DNA from: Balamuthia mandrillaris
Taxonomy: Eukaryota; Discosea; Longamoebia; Balamuthiidae
Reading direction: 5' to 3'
DNA: 64,000 nucleotides
Assembly (NCBI GenBank): GCA_031835245.1
Contig: JAVKOQ010000223.1
Location: 1 to 64,000 of the forward strand
The notes under the pieces are model-generated. The model was not told the DNA's origin. It made no database searches and was given only the letters and a program-made list of their open reading frames with translations. Both the position numbers and the translations under genes were made by a program. Below, piece by piece: positions 21,755 through 34,353 of the stretch. Positions within the stretch are counted from its first letter, which is position 1; each line of letters begins with the position of its first letter.

Positions 21755-24700
21755 ATGGCTTCCACGAAGAAGGCACGCACCTCCCCTCGCGCCAAAAAAC
21801 AATCCTCCTCCAAAGGGCTTTGGGCGCCCCCTCCTTCTGCTGCCTCTTCCTCGCCGCTGCAGGTGCCGGTGGCCATATGGGATGGCCCTCCTACGCATCG
21901 CGTGACTTGCGTTGTGGTCTCACCCGATGGACAACACCTCATAACCGGATCTCGCTCCGGCCAGCTATGCGTTTGGACTCTGTCCAGAAAGAAAGGCATC
22001 AAGGTTATTGATCTTTCCTTCTCTCTCTCTCTCTCTCTCTCTTGTTCGGTTCTTGTTGTTTCTTGTTCTTTATCACTCACTTTTACCAACAACTGCACAG
22101 GTGAATGAACGGTTGCAACCTCTGATGATGCTCATTGGCTGCACCTCTCCCATTTTAGCCCTTGCCTTTGGCACTCATGAATGGACTTCTGTCGTTGTCA
22201 GCTGTGCGTTCTCTATCTGCTTCGCTGCTTCTCTGTCTATGACCCGTTATCAACCTTTGCTTCTCTCCGAACATGGCTTGCTATCAACCGCAACTGATTC
22301 TCTCTCTCTCTCCCTCTCTCTCTCTCTCTCCCTTCATTATTTGGTATCGGATTGGAAACAGTGTCGGAAGATGGAACGTTGTGTGCATGGGACTACACGG
22401 AGGGTTGTTGCGTGGACAGCGTTCCTCAACTTTTTGATCGAACGTCAACAGAAGGAATGGACAGTCCGACAAAGATGGTCACCATGCCCGACAACAGGCA
22501 CATAGCTTGCGCTGGACAAAGCTCCCTTGTTTTCATTGTTGATTTGTGGATGATGAAGGTACTCCTCTCTCTCTCTCTCTCTCTCTCTCTTGTATATTTA
22601 ACCGTACAAACACAATGTAAACATTGCAGGTGGTACACAAGATAAAGCGCCATTCGGATTGGGTTATTGATCTCTTTAGTTGCGACCTGGGAGGAGGCAT
22701 GAGGCACCATCCTTGTCTACTATCTATGGGCATAGATGGTATCCTTCACTTCTCATCGCTGTTGAAAGTATGTGGTGGCGGAAACGGTGGCGCTGCTGAT
22801 GGCGGTGCTGCTGGGTTATCTCTCACCTCTTCATCTGGATCTGTATCGACTCTATCTCCCGAGTTTGCACTTCAGACGCTGTGCCTTAGCCCTGATAGCG
22901 CTTTGCCCGTTGCTGTTAGTGTATCACCTTCACTTCAGACTCTACTCATACTTACTGAAACTCATTGGCTTGTACGTCAATACCTTTGTGAATGTGCTTG
23001 CATCTTTGATGGGATAACATTCACTAATCCCATTTCTTATTGATTTTCGCATAGATTTACACGATGCAAAGCCCAAGATTGCTTGCGTCTGTGGAATGCC
23101 CTACAATACCTACAGTTATAAAAGGAGCAAGTGGGGAAGCTGATGGCTCGAAAACTCAAAGCGAGCACAACAACAGGTATGGTGATATCAGCCGTTGGTC
23201 TGGTGCTGCCTATTTGAGCCCACTCCAGATTGTGATATGGGCAGAGGTATGTTTTACATGTCATTATACTCCTACAAAATTAATCTGGTAATAGAGACAT
23301 CACTGAGCTTATTTTTGTTTCTTAAGAATGGGACAAGTTTTATTTATGACCTGCCAGAAAAATGGAAGGACCTACCTGCATTTAACCTTAGTGAAACAGA
23401 CCTACAGGGTGTTGGCCACATTGATGTGCCTCACACGAACGGCATCTCTTCTTCTGGCATCACCGAAGCGATCCAAACAAATGGTGCTTCGAGCACAACC
23501 GGAGATGGGACTGCCTCCTCCGCACCAACCGATAGAGCACAATCGCAAGGCTCGATGTTATTACCTGGTATTCATAGACGCGCTGAGAAGATCTTTAAGT
23601 CATCATCTAGCCCACATTTGTCCTCACTCTCATCTTCTCATTCCCCAATTATATCCTCCTCCACGACCCTCATCAATAGCAAAACGAGAGAGAAGACTGC
23701 TGAGTGGAAAATCACAGTGTCTCCCTCCTCTTCCGACGAGTTCATATCATCATCACCTGACCAATCCATCACTCAGACTGCAAAAGCTTCCATTTCTGGT
23801 CCAAAGCTTCCAGTCCTTTCTCACGTTTATGACTGTGGGGAGACTTTCCTACACCAGTTTGCAGACAAAGCTTTATCCTCATCGTCTTCTGCTTCTATAA
23901 GCAGCCTGTTGCAAGATGGTCCCTCTTCAGCAACTGCTTTGCCCTTTTCTTCCATCCTTCTTCATTGTCATCACCACATGCTAGTAGCCGCCGACAAACA
24001 GGGTCGTGTCCTTGTTTGGCGGGTGCCAAGACCCTCGTATGACTACTCTTCCTCTGCTACAATCCCAACTACTGTCAAGCCAACCGTTACTCCATGGGCG
24101 TATTCATCGTTATCGTGGGGTTGGCCCTCTGCTTCTTTGAGTTCCTCTTCCACCTTCTCCACTTCGCCTGCCTCCCAAATCACTTTTTCATTGGTCGAAG
24201 AAGAAAGCCTTACTCTCCTTCGGGGTTACGAAAACGGTGACATCAGCATCAGGGACCTGCCAACTCGTAAACAGGCCACCTCTCGACGGATAAAGCACGC
24301 CCATTCTTCCAGGATAACGAGTCTGCTAACCTACCACACCGGAACTCGCGACTTTTTGGTTTCTTCTTCTGCTGATTGTTTGATCAAAGTTTGGAATCTT
24401 CGCACATTGGAGTTGCTTCACGTGTTCTCACAACATACAAACGCAGTAACACAACTATACCAACCATACGGGCCTTTTAAAGAAAAGCCTGCTCCTTTTC
24501 TCTCCTACAAAACTACCACCGTAAAAACAGACCAAACGGCGGATCGAGACGATTCTGGTGCCCAAGAAACTCATTCTATGGTGGTGGCCACCAAGGCTGG
24601 CGTTGGCACTATAACCGCTGGTGTGTTCTTATCTGTTTCCATGGATAAGTCTGTTGGTCTCTTTTCGTTGGAAAATATGAATTGGTATCTTGCTATCCTG

Positions 24701-27322
24701 TTGTGCCAAGTCAAAGTCTGACTGACTCTCTTCTGTTGTTAACAAGCATGCGGATATTTGGAGGCCATGCCACTCAAATAGCAGGTATTGGGTTGAAAAT
24801 CCTACAAGACTACCTCATCGTGCATTGCGAAGATGGTTCTGTATCGGTGTGGGAGGTACCTTTTTTCTCTCTCTCTCTCTCTCCTCTCAGTAGTAATGAC
24901 ATATCTGTACGCTGTATAGTTGAGTTCTGGTATTCTTGAAAGTTGTGTGCACGGTCGCTCCGCAATGGAAATACTTCATAGCACAACCATGCTTACCACG
25001 GAGTACGTACTTATTTATACAAACGTTTGAAGGGTATCTGACTTTGGTTTTCCTTTGTGCACAAAAAGGAACACGTCAATTGACACTTCACAAAGGACCG
25101 CCAAAGCGTTGAGCCTTTGCGTTGGAGAGCGTAGCCAACAGGAGCATCACTCGCCTCTTCAAATTCTACTTCTTGATATAAAGAATATCGTACATGATCT
25201 TTATACGCACCTGCGTCAACCATCTGCTACTTCTTCTACTCCATCGGTGCCTACCACCTCCTCGACTAAAAAAGCTGGGCATCGTAAGAGCACCTCCTCA
25301 ATAGAACGAGGTTCCAGTGGTGAGGATAGCGGTTCTCCATGCTCGTGGAAGAAAACGAATCCGTGTTTAAGAACCCAATCTGTATCCCTCTTCACTTATC
25401 TCATTCCCTGGAATGCCTCCACTTCGCTAGATCGGATATGCAGAGAGGAGCTTCGTCTTATGCCTCCTGACCCAGCCATTACCGTTGGCATTCAAACGTA
25501 AGAACTACCTTCTCTCCCTCTCTCTCAATGGAACTACGCCTCATCTCTCTCTCTCTCTGTTCGTGGAAAAGCACTACTCCTGCAGGAAATATGTACAGCA
25601 TGTTAGTGCCCGGAAAGGCGACTGGTGCTGGCCGGTGGCAAATTTCGAGTCACCTAACAGCTTTACATACCCTTTCTGCCGTTACAGTTATCAAAACTAT
25701 GCTTCAACTGGGTGACAATAAGAATGCAACTAGCCAGTTGCTCTCTTACTTTTGTGCGTTAGCCCCTGATATGACTCCAAATTATATAGGCCCATCTCTT
25801 CCTTTCTTGGCACGTTATTGGCAAGATCCGTTTGGTTTGCTTCTCCCTCTTTTCTTCAGGCAACTTAAAATACAAAACACTTAAACATATCAACCAGATG
25901 ATGTGATGCAATCAGCAAGATCCATCTTCTCGACGACAACCAGCAGAATGTCACCTGAATCCCTCAAGTCGTTCGCGTTGTCGTGGTCTAGCCAACGTAT
26001 GTATCTTTTCCTACTAAAAAATTAGAAGTTTGGCCAAAGGATTAACAGCTTACAACTCCACAATAGTGCGACTTTCAGATTCTGGAATTAGTACCGTGCA
26101 AAGTAAACGAGCGTCGGTGGTGCTAGTGTTAGCCATTCTTGCCTCAGAGCGTCCGGATTGCATTGATGAAATGTATCTCTCTCCTCCAAATCTATGCCTA
26201 GTAGAAGAATGTAACACTTTGTGGTAATAGGTTGGCACGGGAGGCTACTAAAACTCTTTTACGGCTGTTGAAGCAAAAGAGCAACAACAGCATGCGAGTT
26301 ACTGCTGCAGAGTTGCTAGGAAAAGGCTTTGCTATATGGAAACCTCATGTGAAGAGCTTGAGATCCCTTGTGCGCGCCCTGTTTGCACTCACGCTGGTAA
26401 CCGAGCCACCGAATATAGCTGGTATTGCACACCACAGCCTTATGCTGATAGGTATACAAGAGCCAAGGGCCACCATCGATGCTATTGGAGAAATTATCGC
26501 TCGAACGGACATTGGTACAAGAGAGCGCTCCGACGCGCTAGCCTTGCTTGGAAGCTTTGTGAAGAAGGATCCTGTTGCGCTGCTACCGGAGCTTCCCCGT
26601 TTGGTAGACACCGTGGTCCGTTCTTTGGATCCAAATGTGCCTCACCTCCGCGAAAGCTGCCTTAAAGGAGCAACTACCGTTCTGCATTCTTTGGTTAAGC
26701 TCTTCCCGATGGTTAGTTTCCATCAGAAGACCCAACGCCTGGCCGTTGGAAGCGAACGTGCCGTCATAGTCATCTACGACTTGAAAACAGCAACCAAGTG
26801 GCACGTTCTGGAAGGAGGACACAAGTCTGCCATCACCGCCCTTCTCTTCAATCGCAAAGGAGATACGCTGGCTTCTTACGCCATGGAAGACTCCAACGTT
26901 GTTATCTGGGGAACCAAGTCCTCATTCCTGTATGTCTTTGGTTCCAACCCTCACTGTATCCAAATTTCGCCCGTTCCAAAAATCTCTCGTACGCCTTCTC
27001 TCTTCTCTCTTCTCTTCGCGCTTCTCTAGCTCACCTGTTCCACGTATCGTGAGCAGCATTACCATTGCTTTCTTCGATGTTGGATGTAGTGGAGATGGAT
27101 TGGGTGGACGACAAAACATTAAAAGTGAACACAGGCCCCTACGGCAAATTCATAGTAAAGCTCACGCATGTGAAGCGAAAATTAGTAAGCAATACAAATA
27201 GTCGTTGTTGTTGTGGAAACAAAAAAAAAGGAGGGAAGGAAACAATGAGCTTAGCTGGGTTGGAGTCTAACTTCCACATTCATCGCCTTGGCGACCTTAT
27301 TAAAGAGAACAGGATCCTTTAG
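21755..27322 (+). CDS. WDR7: WDR7 / rabconnectin-3 beta homologue
   Basis: A many-exon gene encoding roughly 1,450 residues that follows WDR7 along its length. The N-terminal beta-propeller has VPVAIWDGPPTHRVTCVVVS, TGSRSGQLCVWTL and SEDGTLCAWDYTEG. A second WD block has RITSLLTYHTGTRDFLVSSS, HTNAVTQLYQP, SVSMDKSVGLFSL and IVHCEDGSVSVWE, then GILESCVHGRSAMEIL, the equivalent of WDR7's GALDRCVMGITAVEIL. An alpha-solenoid follows, and C-terminal WD repeats (RLAVGSERAVIVIYDL, GHKSAITALLFN, SNVVIWGTKSSFL). WDR7 binds DMXL (rabconnectin-3 alpha) and regulates V-ATPase assembly on endosomes. Several introns contain TC microsatellites. The end is uncertain: the frame runs to TAG at 27322, but a GTAAGC donor at about 27184 could lead to an earlier end by splicing. 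Confidence 0.9.
22018..22591 (+). repeat. (TC)n tracts in successive WDR7 introns
   Basis: TC runs at about 22020-22041, 22300-22330 and 22565-22590 lie in three consecutive short introns of WDR7, each on the sense strand. A further tract is at 24868-24886. Confidence 0.85.
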
Positions 27323-28649
27323 CAATTGTAGCAGCAGCAGCGCCGCTTTGCTGTGCTCTTCTTCAGCAAACCAGAGCCCCATTTCCTCTTCAGACTCCTC
27401 CGCCTGCTGCTCACCGCTCTCCCTTCGTCGCCATCAGCTTGGCTGTTCCTCCTTACTGCTCGCCATTCTTGCCGCGCCTCTCCCTCTTTCTCTTCCCTTT
27501 CGTCTTCTTTTGTCTTTTCTTCTTCTGCTTTTGTGTGTTCTTGTTTTGTGTGTTCAGTCTCCTTTTCTTCTTCTTTTGGCGTTTCATCTCTTGTGTGTTC
27601 GGTCTCCTTTTCTCCTTCTGCTTGCGCTGCTGCTGGAGTGACCTTACTATCATCAACAGTAGTTGTTGCTTCCGTTTGTGAGACCGTAGCAGCTTTTCCT
27701 CCTCCGTCGACTTTCTCCAAAAGCTTCTTCTCTATTTGAGCAACGCGGCGCTTTCGCTCCTCCTTTTGTGAGTATTCAGTTCTGCCACCGCCGATTTTCA
27801 GCGGTCTGCCCTCCAACAAAGCGGATGAGGCCGATGCCGCTGTGCTAACCAACTGAATGCGTTGCTGTTGCTGCTGCTGCTGTCGATTGGGGGCGGTACC
27901 GATGGTCATCACTGCTTTTCGAAAGACGCGAAGGGCTTCCAGGAGGGCTTTGAGTTTTCGTGTCGGTCGTGTTATTGGGGAGTCCTTTCATTTTTCTTTC
28001 TATCTCTTCTACTCTTCTCCGGCGCTCTTCCCGTTCCTTTCGCTTCTGCGCATCCGGTTCGACATACTTGGGAGCTGTGCGAAAGCATTCAACGCTGATG
28101 CTGCGAGGAGGCCCCTCCAGGGAAGGCCGCTTCTGAGAGTTCATGGAAAGGGACGGTCGATCCCTCACCTGAGCATCAAGAGAGTCGCAGCTGGTGCTGA
28201 TTTGCAGTTGAGGAGAACTGGAAAGCCATGAGCTGCGTATATGTTTTTCTGTCTTGTTCACTGCAGAGTTGGATGCATCTTTGAGAGGAGCGCTTCCTAT
28301 TGTTTTGCTTTGCATGCGAGTCCGGCTTGCTAGCGTTGGCGGTAAATGTTGCTTACATTCCTTTTTTGTTTTTTGAATGAATATCAGCCACACATAACTT
28401 GTACATAGAGAGGAAATTTTTAAAAAAAGGAGTAACGCACAATTATTGTTTGAAAGTGTTCTGCTAGAGTAGGATAACACTCTTTCACGAATTTGTTGAG
28501 TGCAGCCATGTGTCGTTCTCGCTCTCCAAAGTAAACACCTGTAGCGATAGCTTGCATGGTTTTGGAAACAAGTACACTGGAGCGAAATACACTCTTATCA
28601 GGTACTTTAGCTACATAAGATAATCGTTATTAGCATTAGAAACGTCAAC

Positions 28650-28689
<40 letters not shown>

Positions 28690-31600
28690 AACCATCAACT
28701 AGGCCAAAGTGCTGAGGAGAAACGAGGGCGGGGCATAAAAACTTAGTAAAGAGAAAAGACTGTACAACAATGTGCCTCTTCGTGGGCCAGCAATTAATTA
28801 CAATTTCATGCATCCTTTGACAGATGCGCCGAAACGTCCTTTCAAGAAAGAGATGGGAAGAAACAATGTTTAAAAAAAACCCTCGTCTTGCAAGTTAGCC
28901 ATTTTAAAAAAACAAAACGTACAATGGCAACGCAGGCATCGACGCGAAAAGGCGTTCTATTAGAACTCTGCATATCTCCTTTACCTTGGATATGCATTTT
29001 TTTGTTTCTTCTTTCGATTTAGTGATGCTGGGGTCCAACTGGTGTATTTCTTGAGGTTATAATGCTTGTTGATTACAAGGAAAAACGAGAGCAAAAACGT
29101 ACAACGAGAGGTTTATCCAGCTTAAATAAAAGTTGGGTAACGGGCATCAGGACCGCTCGTAGATAGGGTTGCAGCGCCATTTTCATGTACGCTGGTAACA
29201 TTTTGCCAATCATACTACCCGCCAGAAACAGGTCCGTTATTGACACTATACAAAACAAAATAATTGAATCACCAGGAAAAGGAGGAACAAAGAAGAGGAA
29301 GCAGAACAAGAAGAAGCAGCAGCAGCAACAACAACAACAATAACCAAAGAGGTACCTGTATGCGCTACTTCAATAGAGCAGAGCTTTACGAAAAGATCTA
29401 CCAGACGACGATGATTTGCGAACACGATGATAAGGGCATTACCGATGCAATCCATTTTGTGTTGGGAAATGCCGCTTGTGCTGGAACAAAGGGCCGATAC
29501 GACGCTCAGATGCGGTTTTAGCAGTACGTTGATAAAGTCATTGATGAGCTCCTTTGCTCCCTCTTTTGCTAGAAACCGAGCGACGCTGTTTTCTATTGTT
29601 GTTTGTTCGCTTTCTTCCCCATCACTATCCATCTTTTTATATCTTTCAATAACGGCAACTAATTCCTCAAAGGCCTTGAGGTAGAGAAAGAGAGAGCAGC
29701 AAGAGAAGTTATTCACTCTTCTCATAACGGACATATAAAAATAATAATATTACCTTTTGGTCTGGAACTTCTTTCAAAAGCCACACGAGCTCACCTTCAT
29801 CCTGTTTTTGCTTCATAGCTTCGAGAGGAACATCATGTTCACCCATCACTATTTCAGTGGGAGCGGGCTTCGTGGTCGATGAAGAAGGAGAGGAAGAGGT
29901 TGCCGGAGAAGAGGAGACCAACAAAGCCAACGCAAAGCGGGAGCTGTATGCTGGTACCATAGACTTCTTGAGATTGCCTGTGTGCAACATGGGCACCTCT
30001 CCAACCTTTTTCCGTAGCCGCTGAATAACTTCAGTCGTTTGCTCGTTTTCTTTAAGAAGCAAACTGCGATAAGAATTATCTTGCAAGAATATCTTCACCA
30101 CCGCCTTAACGTTCAATAAAAAGAAACTTCAGTATGGTAACCAAAGTAAAACACGTGTTTGGAACTTACCTCTTTTGCATCCGCAGCCAGCTTTTGCTAG
30201 AAAACAAAAAGTGAGATAGCGCAACAAACAACAGGAAAAGGACGAGAAGAGAAAGGACGCTCTCGAATATATACCTGGCTTTGCAGATTCCGTTCTTGCA
30301 TGGCTGTCAAATACTCGCAGGCTAACTGCGAGTTAGACGCCTGACAGTCCATTGAAGAATTGCTATTGCTGTTGCCACTACCTCCAGAAGGGGTTGCCAT
30401 TTTCTTGGTTGTGGTTGGACTGTGCATTTCCTCTAGCTTCTCTCGCGGTGTCTGCTTCGACTCGCTTTGGCTGGCAAAAAGGTAGGTCGAGTTGGTTCTC
30501 GGCCGCATATTCAAAAATTGGTGTTGGAGGAGCTGCGTTGCGCCCGGCCGTTGCTGTGGGTCCTTGTCAAGACACAAATTGAGAAACTCCAAAAAATGTT
30601 GCGACCATTCCTCTTTACGGGTCAGTTGTGGCGGAGGTCCGCTTACTATTTGAAAGACCGCCTGTGGAAACATATGCATTAGAATATGTCGCGCGTTGGG
30701 AAAACAGAGAGAGAGAGAGAGAGAGAGTGAGAGTGAGAGTGAGAGTGAGAGAGAGGTGAGAGAGAAGGTACAGAAAGAGGCTCTTGAGAGAAAAAAGGAT
30801 GAAATGGTTCCGCCAGCTCAAGTATTGTCATGCCAAGAGACCAAATGTCAGTCTGCTCAATTTGGGGTAACAAAGCAAAGAGATCAGAACACAACGTTTC
30901 ATAGAAACCATTAAGCACGAAAGAAAAGGAAAAGCGACCTTTTGGTCATAACCATCTCCAACAATCAACTCAGGAGACATCCAAAAGGGGCTTCCAATCT
31001 GGGTACTCTTCTTTTCGTTGGGACTAACCAAAGTAGTGATACCAAAATCGGCGAGCTTCACTTGTCCCTTTTTGTTGAGAAGAACGTTTCCTGCTTTTAT
31101 GTCTGCTCTCCCAAGTTAGATGTTCATAATGAGCGTTATGTTGCTGTAACTACTTGCGAAGGAAGTGGAGGAAGAACGTGCCTCGATGGATCATGCGGCG
31201 AGAGTGAAGGTGTTCTAGGCCTTTAAGAACTTGGTAGACTATCATTCGAATCTGGCTCTCTGAGAGGGCTTGCTTTTTCACCACCAGCAAATCACCTATC
31301 GACCCCGCATCGAAATACTCCATTGCGATCTATCCCATGGGAATCACACATGTAAGAACGAGAAAAAATAAACATGAATAGAAGCAGAAGCAGAAGCAGA
31401 AGGAGGAGAAGGAGAAGAACAAGAACAAGAAGAACAAAGAACGAAGCAAAACAACATATACAACAGCAACATGAGTTATAAGAAATAGCCGAAAACGATA
31501 ATGAAACAGAAATGAGAAGACCATAGGGCAAGAGAACGAGAAGAAACACAAAATGGTACCCAAAGGTCTCCATTCTTGAAGTAGCTGTTGTAGTACTCAA

Positions 31601-31937
31601 TGCAAAACTGGGAGTTCAGCTCTTTGAGAATGGTGATCTCTCTCAGGCTGTCCTTCAAGTCCTTCTTCGACTGAAAGATGTCCGGCAGCTTCTTAACGGC
31701 CGCAATGGTGCCATCCATACGATTGATAGCTTTGTAAACAGTCCCATGAGAGCTGTTTAAGAGAGCGAGTGATGAGTTTTAAAAAAAAAACAGGACCACT
31801 GGGTGAGAAGCCACCATCAAAGAGCGAAAAACGACGAACCCTTTGCCAAGGATGTCAGTCAGTTCGTAGATCTCCTCCGGATCATGTTTGGCGATCAGGC
31901 CGGAGCTTATCAAAATGGTTTCTTCATTGCTTCGCAT
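27319..31937 (-). CDS. Ste20-family kinase fused to an RA-like and a RasGAP domain
   Basis: Multi-exon minus-strand gene starting at ATG 31937 (an in-frame stop lies just upstream). Kinase domain first: LGKGSHGTVYKA glycine loop, IAAVKKL lysine, MIHRDIKAGNVLL catalytic loop (joined across an intron with a GC donor), ADFGITT, then GSPFWMSPE typical of Ste20/MST/GCK kinases. Next, VVKIFLQDNSYRSLLLKENE to ELVWLLKEVP looks like a Ras-association domain. A full RasGAP domain follows: KPHLSVVSALCSSTSGI, DLFLAGSMIGKMLPAYMKMA, EIHQLDPSITKSKEE, FLFTKFLCPALVSPQHFGLVD and MQAIATGVYFGERERHM. The catalytic arginine finger (FR in active GAPs) is Leu (DLFLAGS). The C-terminus is charged coiled coil. Near 27845-27899 the reading frame changes, which a 55-bp intron containing CAG repeats would resolve. 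It is convergent with WDR7, overlapping by 4 bp if both stops are right. Confidence 0.88.
28651..28686 (-). repeat. (TC)n microsatellite (sense strand) in the RasGAP part of the kinase gene
   Basis: GA dinucleotides on the plus strand in an intron just after the exon encoding SPQHFGLVDG. A second tract with (GAGAGT) variants is at 30708-30755. Confidence 0.9.
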
Positions 31938-32765
31938 CGCACCGCCTCTTTACTTTTTTTTTTCGTTTTGCTATACTCTAAAAAAATGCGGGCGGCAAAC
32001 AAACAACAAAAAAAGACGAGATTAAGAGTGCAGGGGACGGCAAAGAAAAGCAAAGCAGCAGTAGGAATACTTTTTTTTTCTTTTGCTTTTCCTGTTAGGC
32101 AGCAACAGGCAAGCTTTGGCCTTCCTGCACTCTCCCGTCTCTCTCCCTCTCTCCTGCCGGCAGTGCGTGGTGCCTTCCTCCTCCCTTTTCGCTTCCAGTC
32201 GACAATATTGACGGTAGGTGAGGTCATCCTGGCGCTCTGGTTTGGAAATTTTTCATTAATGGTTGGGAGTTACGCCCGCCACCGTGATGGCGGGGGGCGC
32301 CGCCGACGGTTAGCGGGTGGTTGCGGTGGGTTTTGGCAAAGCGGTGCCAACTCGTTGGCGGGGGCACCTTATTTCTTCCCCCTCCCTGTCCAATTCATAA
32401 GCCAACGAGTTACCGAAATGAGAGGAGAACGCAATCACACCCCATAATTTTTTTTTGTTTATTATTATTCGGTTATTCATCGCCCAGAGAAGAAATAAAG
32501 AGAAAGAGAAAGAGAAGAGAGGAAGGCGCGGAAGGGGGCATTTAACACCGAAAAGAAAAAGGTTTTTGTTTTTTAAGTTTGACCGTTTTTACAAAGCAAG
32601 CAGAACCGCGTCGGGGGAGTAAAAACAGAGAAGGTACCTTCGCCGTTGTTTATTCTTCTTCTTCTGTTTATTATTATTCTTCTTTGTGGTTAAAAAAAAC
32701 TATTTGTTGGGGTTTTTGAACAGAAAAAATAAAATTAGAAAGATAAGCACCTCATAGGCAAGACA
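31938..32765. other. Divergent promoter region (Ste20-RasGAP / RGS-C2)
   Basis: It contains T-rich and A-rich blocks, a short GC-rich stretch (about 32270-32365) and a GTCGACAATATTGAC site at 32198. The imperfectly repeated ACGCCCGCCACC and GCGCCGCCGACGG blocks near 32272-32308 carry no ORF that I can support. TTCTTCTT runs at about 32650-32685 precede the RGS-C2 leader. Confidence 0.45.
32198..32206 (+). promoter_or_regulatory. GTCGACAAT motif in a divergent promoter
   Basis: Exact GTCGACAAT, 261 bp upstream of the kinase ATG on one side and 560 bp from the RGS-C2 ATG on the other. It matches the copies at 7901, 50073 and 63701. Confidence 0.4.
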
Positions 32766-34353
32766 ATGCACAGCAATTCACCAAGAGGCTCTGGCAGCCA
32801 GCTCTTCTCGTCGACCTCCTCTTCCTCCGACTCTTCCTTCCAACGGGGTCAGCTCAGCAACTCCAATTCGACAACCGCCACAAGCCCTGCCGCCTACTAT
32901 GACTCCTCTTCCGAAGTGGACCTGACGAGCAGCGGGGAGTCCCATGGGGCCGTTGGGCGGGCGAGAGGGCGTGCGGCCTCCGCTAGGGGCTCCTCCGCCT
33001 CCTCCTTGGCTTCTTCGGGAGTGGCCTCGCTGCTGCCGCGCGGGATTATTCCCACGGGCGGGGAGGTGGAGATGTTGAAGGACGAGGAAATCACCCCCGA
33101 GAACATTGTGAAGGACGAGCTGTTGAAGACTATGTTCAGAGTCTTCCTGGCCAAGAGCTTCTGTTCTGAGAATTTTGACTTTTACCTTGCCGTGGAAGAC
33201 TTCAAACATAACCATAGGGTTTGTTGTTTTTTTTGTGTATTTTTTTTGTGCGTTTTGTGTTTTAATTCTGTTCTTTTTCTTACGCTTTGTTCTTGCTGTA
33301 ATGCTGACAATAGATAGGAATACCGGCACCTGCTCTTCGCGAACGAGCTTTTGATATTTATGAAAAATACTTGAAAGAGGTCTTAGCACTTCTTGTTCTT
33401 GTTCTTGTTCTTCTTGTTCTTCTTCTTCTTGTTCTTCTTGTTCTTCTTGTTCTTCTTGTTCTTGTTCTTGTTCTTGTTCTTCTTGTTCTTCTTGTTCTTG
33501 TTCTTCTTCTTCTTCTTCTTGTTCTTCTTCTTCTTCTTCCACTTCTGCTCCTCCTCTTTGTTTCTTCTTTTGTTCTCTCTCTTTCTTTGTTTCCATACTC
33601 TGTAGTTATTATCTTCATTACTCATTTATATCTCTTGCAGGAGAGTGACTCAGAGATCAACGTCAACACTAAAGTGAAACAACAAATGCAAGAGGAGAAG
33701 AACAACCTGGAGGCCTCCACCGGCACTCCCAATATTAACTTTTTCGAAGAGGCCCAAAAGTCCATCAGCTTTCTTCTTCAAACGGACACCGTCCCCAAGT
33801 TCCTCTCTAGCAGCGACTACAAAACTGTCAAAGGTTCGTTTCCTGTTATCCTCCTTTTCCTTCTTCCACACTAACGGCACAAAATGAAGAATTAAGAGAA
33901 GTGGAACATAAGCTACCAAATCTCTTAGGAACATTAGCAGCTTTGAAGGAGGAGATTGAGAAGGTAGAAACAGAAGTGGACCACTTCAGCAACAAAAAAG
34001 AAATGCTGGAGGAGTACGTTCGCAACTCAGTGGCAGAGGCGGACCGCATGCTCAAGGAACGTAACGATCAGCTGGAAGAGATGGAAAAGGAGCGAGTGAG
34101 AAGGGAAAAGGAGGCGGAGAAGGAGAGGCTCAAGAAGGAAAAAGAAGCAGAGAAGGAGAGGCTCAAGAAAGAAAGAGAGGAGAGAAAGAAAGAGGGAGGT
34201 GGAGGAGGCGTCTTTCAGGACTCCATCATGGGATCAATGGGCCTTGCCAACTTGGGACCGCCCAGACCCAAAAAGAAGGAACACAAGATCAAACTTGGAG
34301 AGGATTCCTACATCTTCTACGTTGATGGTAATGCCTCCTTTCTCTTCTGTAGT

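Follow-up and report, generated by a model that had tools for sequence, protein, structure and literature searches.

In animals, Ras-family GTPases are connected to MST-type protein kinases through a separate protein, a RASSF adaptor whose Ras-association (RA) domain provides the link, and the Hippo kinases MST1 and MST2 carry a C-terminal SARAH domain. A GTPase-activating (RasGAP) fold can also exist without its catalytic residue: in IQGAP1 and IQGAP2 the finger arginine is gone, so that no catalysis is expected, and the IQGAP chain carries a CH domain, IQ motifs and a RasGAP-C domain as well. Here we describe a gene of Balamuthia mandrillaris whose predicted product unites an MST-type Ste20 kinase, an RA-like segment and a RasGAP-fold domain that has lost its arginine finger. 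It lies in a stretch of 64,000 nucleotides (positions 1 to 64,000 of the forward strand of contig JAVKOQ010000223.1, GenBank assembly GCA_031835245.1), hereafter the window, whose numbering is used throughout. Our preferred reading, to which we assign a probability of about 0.55, is that of a Ras-family-controlled MST-type protein kinase with a regulatory half formed by the RA-like segment and a catalytically dead RasGAP domain.

Several described proteins share part of this arrangement. The Dictyostelium kinase Phg2 is described as a Rap1 effector via a Ras-binding domain and thus resembles the Balamuthia protein in combining an amoebozoan kinase and a Ras-binding domain in one chain, but it is a TKL kinase, and the excerpt of its description mentions no RasGAP fold (PMC3934975, excerpt). 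Amoebozoan proteins of the GbpC/GbpD type join protein kinase, RasGEF and cNMP-binding domains (PMC4758236, excerpt); their Ras module is a RasGEF, whereas that of the Balamuthia protein is a RasGAP. Hallmarks of the IQGAPs are a threonine at the finger position and a YYR motif, and these proteins, without a finger and with a changed FLR motif, are reported not to bind Ras through that region; in IqgC, the interaction with RasG was lost when the finger or the FLR motif was mutated (PMC12871552, excerpt). A solved complex of the IQGAP2 domain includes Cdc42 (title of structure entry 5cjp). An NF1 finger mutant of Dictyostelium still reached ruffles and macropinosomes (PMC4374526, excerpt).

The gene is read on the minus strand from 31937 to 27845, and its predicted 14-exon model encodes 949 amino acids. 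All 13 exon junctions are in phase; 12 introns have GT-AG borders and one, intron 3, has GC-AG. The NCBI model P0001 (952 amino acids, named 'TAO kinase 1a') differs from ours in that its exon 14 begins with three additional residues, ECK, and both make identical joins between the kinase end, the RA-like and the RasGAP exons. In this region exons 6, 7, 8 and 9 are separated by introns of 78, 65 and 79 nt, which leave little room for a gene border. A mistaken joining of two adjacent genes, one for the kinase half and one for the RasGAP half, could be read from the NCBI model of the second copy of the gene, P0002, which starts inside the kinase; given the short in-phase introns, the same joins in P0001 and exons 1-13 that are open in both copies, we consider it highly improbable. 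Pfam finds Pkinase (residues 24-278, E 1.6e-66) and RasGAP (E 4.7e-19) in the single predicted protein. An earlier note, made from the DNA, had placed kinase, RA-like segment and RasGAP in one gene and in that order, which agrees with our model. Its 3' end at 27319 has to be corrected, since the frame of the window copy never gets there and stops at 27845, as it does in P0001.

The kinase catalytic motifs are all found in the translation (GKGSHGTVY, AVKK, HRDIKAGN, DFG and GSPFWMSPE). The best sequence matches in the PDB are MST1/2 (STK4/STK3; 272 bits, E 3.7e-80), while the MST3/4 group reaches at most 232 bits and TAO3 215 bits. By its sequence the kinase is intact and a Ste20 kinase of the MST/GCK-II type, a class that is set here by match scores to solved structures. 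The same scores led us to reject an identity as TAO kinase, and the public name is misleading because MST1/2 outscore TAO3 among solved structures. MST1 and MST2 thus provide the nearest solved kinase structures; the Balamuthia protein differs from the MST-RASSF pair in holding an RA-like segment and a RasGAP fold in the same chain, and from MST1/MST2 in that the whole protein's 11 Pfam matches at E <= 1 include no SARAH domain. Elsewhere in the genome, contig C8 has two kinase matches that share 49% identity with query residues 73-255, and neither lies near any listed RasGAP match, so that the fused kinase has close paralogues which look unfused.

The RasGAP half retains its fold. With a RasGAP profile from which this gene was left out, P0001 scores 165 bits over residues 529-780, and the predicted model keeps the fold of active RasGAPs. 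This full-length AlphaFold model has a mean predicted local distance difference test score (pLDDT) of 52 and a predicted template modelling score (pTM) of 0.42; it is uninformative on the kinase and RA parts, which mostly stay below pLDDT 50, and the fold comparison effectively covered residues 481-802. In both sequence and fold the closest matches are NF1 and p120GAP, which are nearer than IQGAP. From these two the domain differs by the change of the finger from R to L and of FLR to FTK, and by its fusion to a kinase and not to their usual partner domains. Membership of the IQGAP family was rejected: the domain reads Leu and FTK instead of the Thr finger and YYR, and CH, IQ and RasGAP-C are absent from the same 11 Pfam matches.

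The catalytic residues of the domain are lost. In alignment A1 the position of the arginine finger is Leu597, where 14 of 14 other RasGAP proteins have Arg; leucine is present in both Balamuthia copies, and the finger loop HTVSITDLFLAGSMIGKM contains no arginine. The FLR motif reads FTK, with Thr707 and Lys708 standing where Leu and Arg are found in all 14 aligned relatives. The alignment thereby bears out two claims of the earlier note, that the finger arginine is lost and that the second arginine has become lysine, and it adds the loss of the middle residue of the motif, from Leu to Thr707. Since finger and FLR motif are both gone, the established RasGAP mechanism makes GAP catalysis very unlikely, and the sequence argues strongly that GAP activity has been lost. 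A domain that still works as a GAP, either via Lys708 or with an arginine supplied by another protein, would give the kinase its own negative feedback. The lysine at the second-arginine position would fit this alternative, but a finger loop without Arg, where the 14 relatives all have one, renders it very improbable.

The 14 aligned proteins were chosen out of 35 other RasGAP proteins returned by our searches. Among these 35, R, L and R are read at the three positions of finger and FLR motif in 34, and the main RasGAP domain of the remaining one, P0015 from a EukProt transcriptome, shows them too. P0015 has, however, a further RasGAP domain (residues 389-629, E 8.6e-22), in which the finger is Lys and FLR has His-Ser in place of its L and R, and the idea that the loss of both features is unique to the Balamuthia gene was consequently rejected. 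P0015 differs in that its degenerate domain lies behind a normal one and in that its listed Pfam domains are SH3, C2 and RasGAP, with no kinase. The 21 other RasGAP loci of Balamuthia that were read (L019-L039) have Arg as the finger in 19 of 20 readable domains and retain the second arginine, that of the FLR motif, in 22 of 22; the finger was readable in 20 of the 22 domains (exceptions: L028 and the first gene of L039), and several loci are near-identical, so that 20 loci represent fewer than 20 genes. Judged by these residues, degenerate RasGAP domains do occur elsewhere, as an exception. The single domain with a finger other than Arg is that of L021 (C73:156500-165000), an IQGAP-like gene with a RasGAP fold whose finger residue is lysine and whose FLR motif is replaced by YYR. 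The genome yields 109 RasGAP exon matches and, even with duplicate contigs discounted, appears to harbour a large RasGAP family.

Comparison of copies indicates that the gene is under selection. The assembly comprises 64.8 Mb in 775 contigs; the window lies on contig C222, and three copies (C222, C36 and C260) are identical over 28420-31937. C36 and C260 equal the window over all 6518 nt compared (26920-33437), and the recurrence of an unchanged stretch on three contigs suggests that the assembly contains redundant haplotypes. The copy on C694 (DNA L012), the fourth, is 97% identical. At the protein level, two Balamuthia mandrillaris proteins align with the part of the gene used as query, with identities of 99% and 98%. 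The window and C694 do not differ at all in 2666 nt (1500 nt upstream and exons 1-5 with their introns; L012 1-2666 against window 33437-30772), and divergence starts in intron 5, at a CT microsatellite. Gene conversion or a recombined haplotype may explain this change, and so may a switch in the assembly. Beyond it, exons 6-13 differ by 25 substitutions and no indels in 1659 nt (1.5%), whereas introns 5-13 have, over 755 nt, 66 substitutions and 7 indels (9%); the count for intron 9 (30 substitutions) is partly repeat misalignment. In this comparison exon 14 was started at 28357, which is neither our acceptor (28351) nor that of NCBI (28360), so that the border between intron 13 and exon 14 is off by a few bases. 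Exons 1-13 differ by 10 amino acids, none of them at the finger or the FLR motif. The ratio of nonsynonymous to synonymous substitution rates (dN/dS) over exons 6-13 is 0.19; this two-copy comparison shows purifying selection at the sequence level. Taken with the retained fold, it implies that the RasGAP domain still does something.

The segment between the two halves is less distinct. For exon 8 alone, the Pfam families listed are just two, RA (PF00788; 19.7 bits for a cut-off of 21, E 0.0014) and RA_2 (PF21989; 16 bits for a cut-off of 27, E 0.013), both below threshold, and the whole-protein scan gives RA at E 0.13 and RA_2 at E 0.066. By sequence, the RA segment has no meaningful match in the PDB. 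The profile search for RasGAP and RA that the earlier note had proposed is accordingly clear in its first part and falls short in its second, and 'two Ras-contact modules' remains the note's conjecture because the RA-like segment does not reach the Pfam cut-off. The RA-like identity of exon 8 is suggestive, and with moderate confidence we take the exon to adopt an RA fold.

In our preferred reading, the front half of the protein is the MST-type Ste20 kinase, complete in its catalytic motifs. The back half would be regulatory, consisting of the RA-like segment and of a RasGAP fold in which the residues that accelerate GTP hydrolysis are missing and the Ras-facing FLR motif is partly lost. A GTP-loaded Ras-family protein (Ras or Rap) would bind the RA-like segment, perhaps with help from the pseudo-GAP, and this binding would bring the kinase to a Ras-active membrane or relieve autoinhibition. 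The kinase could then phosphorylate targets there, and the Ras signal would not be ended. The RA-like part is the simplest putative contact for the Ras family. We regard the putative binding of a Ras-family protein with moderate confidence, and the evidence hints weakly at a putative coupling of such Ras input to kinase activity. Two observations weigh against this reading. The RA match stays under Pfam's gathering score, and 4 of the 13 RasGAP columns that are invariant in the 14 relatives are lost, the FLR leucine among them, so that the domain could bind no GTPase any more. A looser count, in which the gene loses 17 of 36 columns and its relatives 0-8, uses thresholds of 11/14 for this gene and 11/13 per relative; these totals are not strictly comparable, and we relied on the 14/14 columns.

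Whether the pseudo-GAP itself contacts Ras is where explanations diverge. The earlier note regarded it as a probable sensor of Ras-GTP, as in IQGAP, which would form a two-point reader with the RA-like segment, a view that overlaps with our preferred reading. It is favoured by the retained fold and by conserved positions that are kept, namely R734, K741 and Q744 (each in 14/14 relatives) and E756 (13/14), and is consistent with the localization of the Dictyostelium NF1 finger mutant. On the other side, the FLR leucine is Thr, the stretch QNLAN reads QAIAT, with two conserved asparagines changed (Asn in 11/14 and 12/14 relatives), and in IqgC a mutation of finger or FLR motif blocks the interaction with RasG. 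Since the evidence from IqgC and IQGAP and that from the NF1 finger mutant point in opposite directions, we put Ras sensing by the pseudo-GAP at roughly one chance in four and consider it rather unlikely. A RasGAP fold that binds no Ras, and serves as a scaffold, a dimerising module or a binder of Rac or Cdc42 like that of IQGAP, also overlaps with the preferred reading, as Ras input could come via the RA-like part alone or be absent. The behaviour of the IQGAPs, the Cdc42 complex of IQGAP2 and the combined change of finger, FLR and neighbouring Asn positions speak for it, whereas the closeness of sequence and model to p120GAP and NF1 and the missing IQGAP hallmarks speak against it; we view it as possible, though still improbable.

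We speculate, as a doubtful extension of the Ras-family-controlled kinase, that the decommissioned RasGAP and the RA-like segment read Ras-GTP in one chain without quenching it, and that the MST-type kinase would be on only where two contacts with active Ras-family proteins are made, as a putative one-protein counterpart of RASSF-MST in which the pseudo-GAP is the second reader. If true, a domain for switching off GTPases would here, outside the IQGAPs, have been converted into a module through which a kinase receives input, and the Ras input that reaches MST-type kinases through a separate adaptor in animals would seem to have been rebuilt within one chain in an amoeba. With finger and FLR motif both changed and the fold kept under selection, the domain is a natural experiment for separating the RasGAP residues needed for recognition from those needed for catalysis.

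The same architecture was sought in other proteins, and the limited searches found no further kinase-RasGAP fusion; these protein searches require shared 5-residue words and similar total length, and would miss a diverged or split relative. Residues 340-800 matched at least four proteins among 8000 scored candidates, namely the two Balamuthia copies, an NF1-like protein of Balamuthia and a chytrid RasGAP, in a search that the low-complexity insert may have swamped. With residues 488-765, 2 of 1645 candidates matched, both representing this gene. The NF1-like protein (P0003) as query returned 34 RasGAP proteins out of 2579 candidates, none of them listed with PF00069. Among the papers listed by literature searches, titles and the openings of abstracts describe no kinase-RasGAP fusion; 'Ras' and 'GAP' are absent as whole words from the Acanthamoeba genome paper (PMC4053784), and the excerpt of the Balamuthia transcriptome paper (PMC8569187) has no word beginning with 'Ras'. 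Within the scope of these protein and literature searches, the statement that no described family has the order kinase, RA-like segment, RasGAP stands. The parts are known singly, as Ras-binding effector kinase, kinase-RasGEF and dead RasGAP; within the same limited searches, their combination is a new one.

For a second fusion within the genome, the 109 listed RasGAP matches were compared by eye with the kinase matches listed, both numbers being lower bounds. On C1, C18 and C79 a kinase match lies on the same strand as a RasGAP match but 9-12 kb away, and because of this distance they were taken as separate genes. A candidate on C259, with a kinase between two RasGAP matches of the same strand, was rejected, as the kinase looks by eye like a separate gene of PH and AGC-type kinase domains. 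In that locus (L039, C259:29000-38500), the two RasGAP genes that flank the apparent PH and AGC-type kinase gene seem by eye to have SAM-like repeats behind the GAP part. At 20 Balamuthia RasGAP loci tblastn found no kinase match at E <= 0.01, in a search that had no positive control from the window's own gene. The 21 loci read besides the window gene come from roughly 75 RasGAP places (a count by eye), and uniqueness of the fusion in the genome is to that extent unproven.

Table 1. Parts of the kinase-RasGAP gene in window coordinates.
Feature	Position	Strand	Basis
Exons 1-6: MST-like Ste20 kinase domain (residues 24-278) and Ser/Thr/Gln-rich linker	30275..31937	-	Splice model, Pkinase match, PDB matches, motifs
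Borders of exons 1-6	31937-31840, 31752-31560, 31329-31182, 31102-30939, 30852-30772, 30661-30275	-	
Exon 7: linker of 9 codons, QKLAADAKE	30170..30196	-	Flanked by GT-AG introns, both junctions in phase 0
Exon 8: RA-like (Ras-association) segment, 117 aa, with low-complexity insert	29754..30104	-	Sub-threshold RA and RA_2 matches
Exons 9-13: RasGAP-fold domain	28441..29674	-	
Borders of exons 9-13	29674-29356, 29245-29103, 29038-28923, 28838-28693, 28610-28441	-	
Codon CTG: Leu597, arginine-finger position	29223..29225	-	Alignment with 14 other RasGAP proteins
Codons ACT AAG: Thr707-Lys708, FLR to F-T-K (Lys708 codon AAG 28742-28744)	28742..28747	-	Alignment with 14 other RasGAP proteins
Exon 14: charged tail with low-complexity sequence; stop codon 27845-27847	27845..28351	-	Splice model
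Exon 14 of the NCBI model, acceptor 9 nt earlier than 28351	from 28360	-	

The copies differ in their tails (window 27251-27987): the window frame ends at 27845, while the annotated C694 protein P0002 runs on into a longer charged tail with poly-Gln and much Lys and Glu. Public names and models are inconsistent as well, with P0001, an MST-like kinase joined to RasGAP, named 'TAO kinase 1a', and with P0002 modelled from inside the kinase though the L012 DNA encodes the whole kinase. Beyond the 3' end of the gene, open frames on the plus strand (23186-27029) run towards it and resemble a WD40/HEAT protein. Divergently, on the plus strand at 32766-33218 and beyond, a neighbouring gene starts with a piece of an RGS domain (PF00615, E 1.2e-6) and thus appears to be another gene of G-protein signalling.

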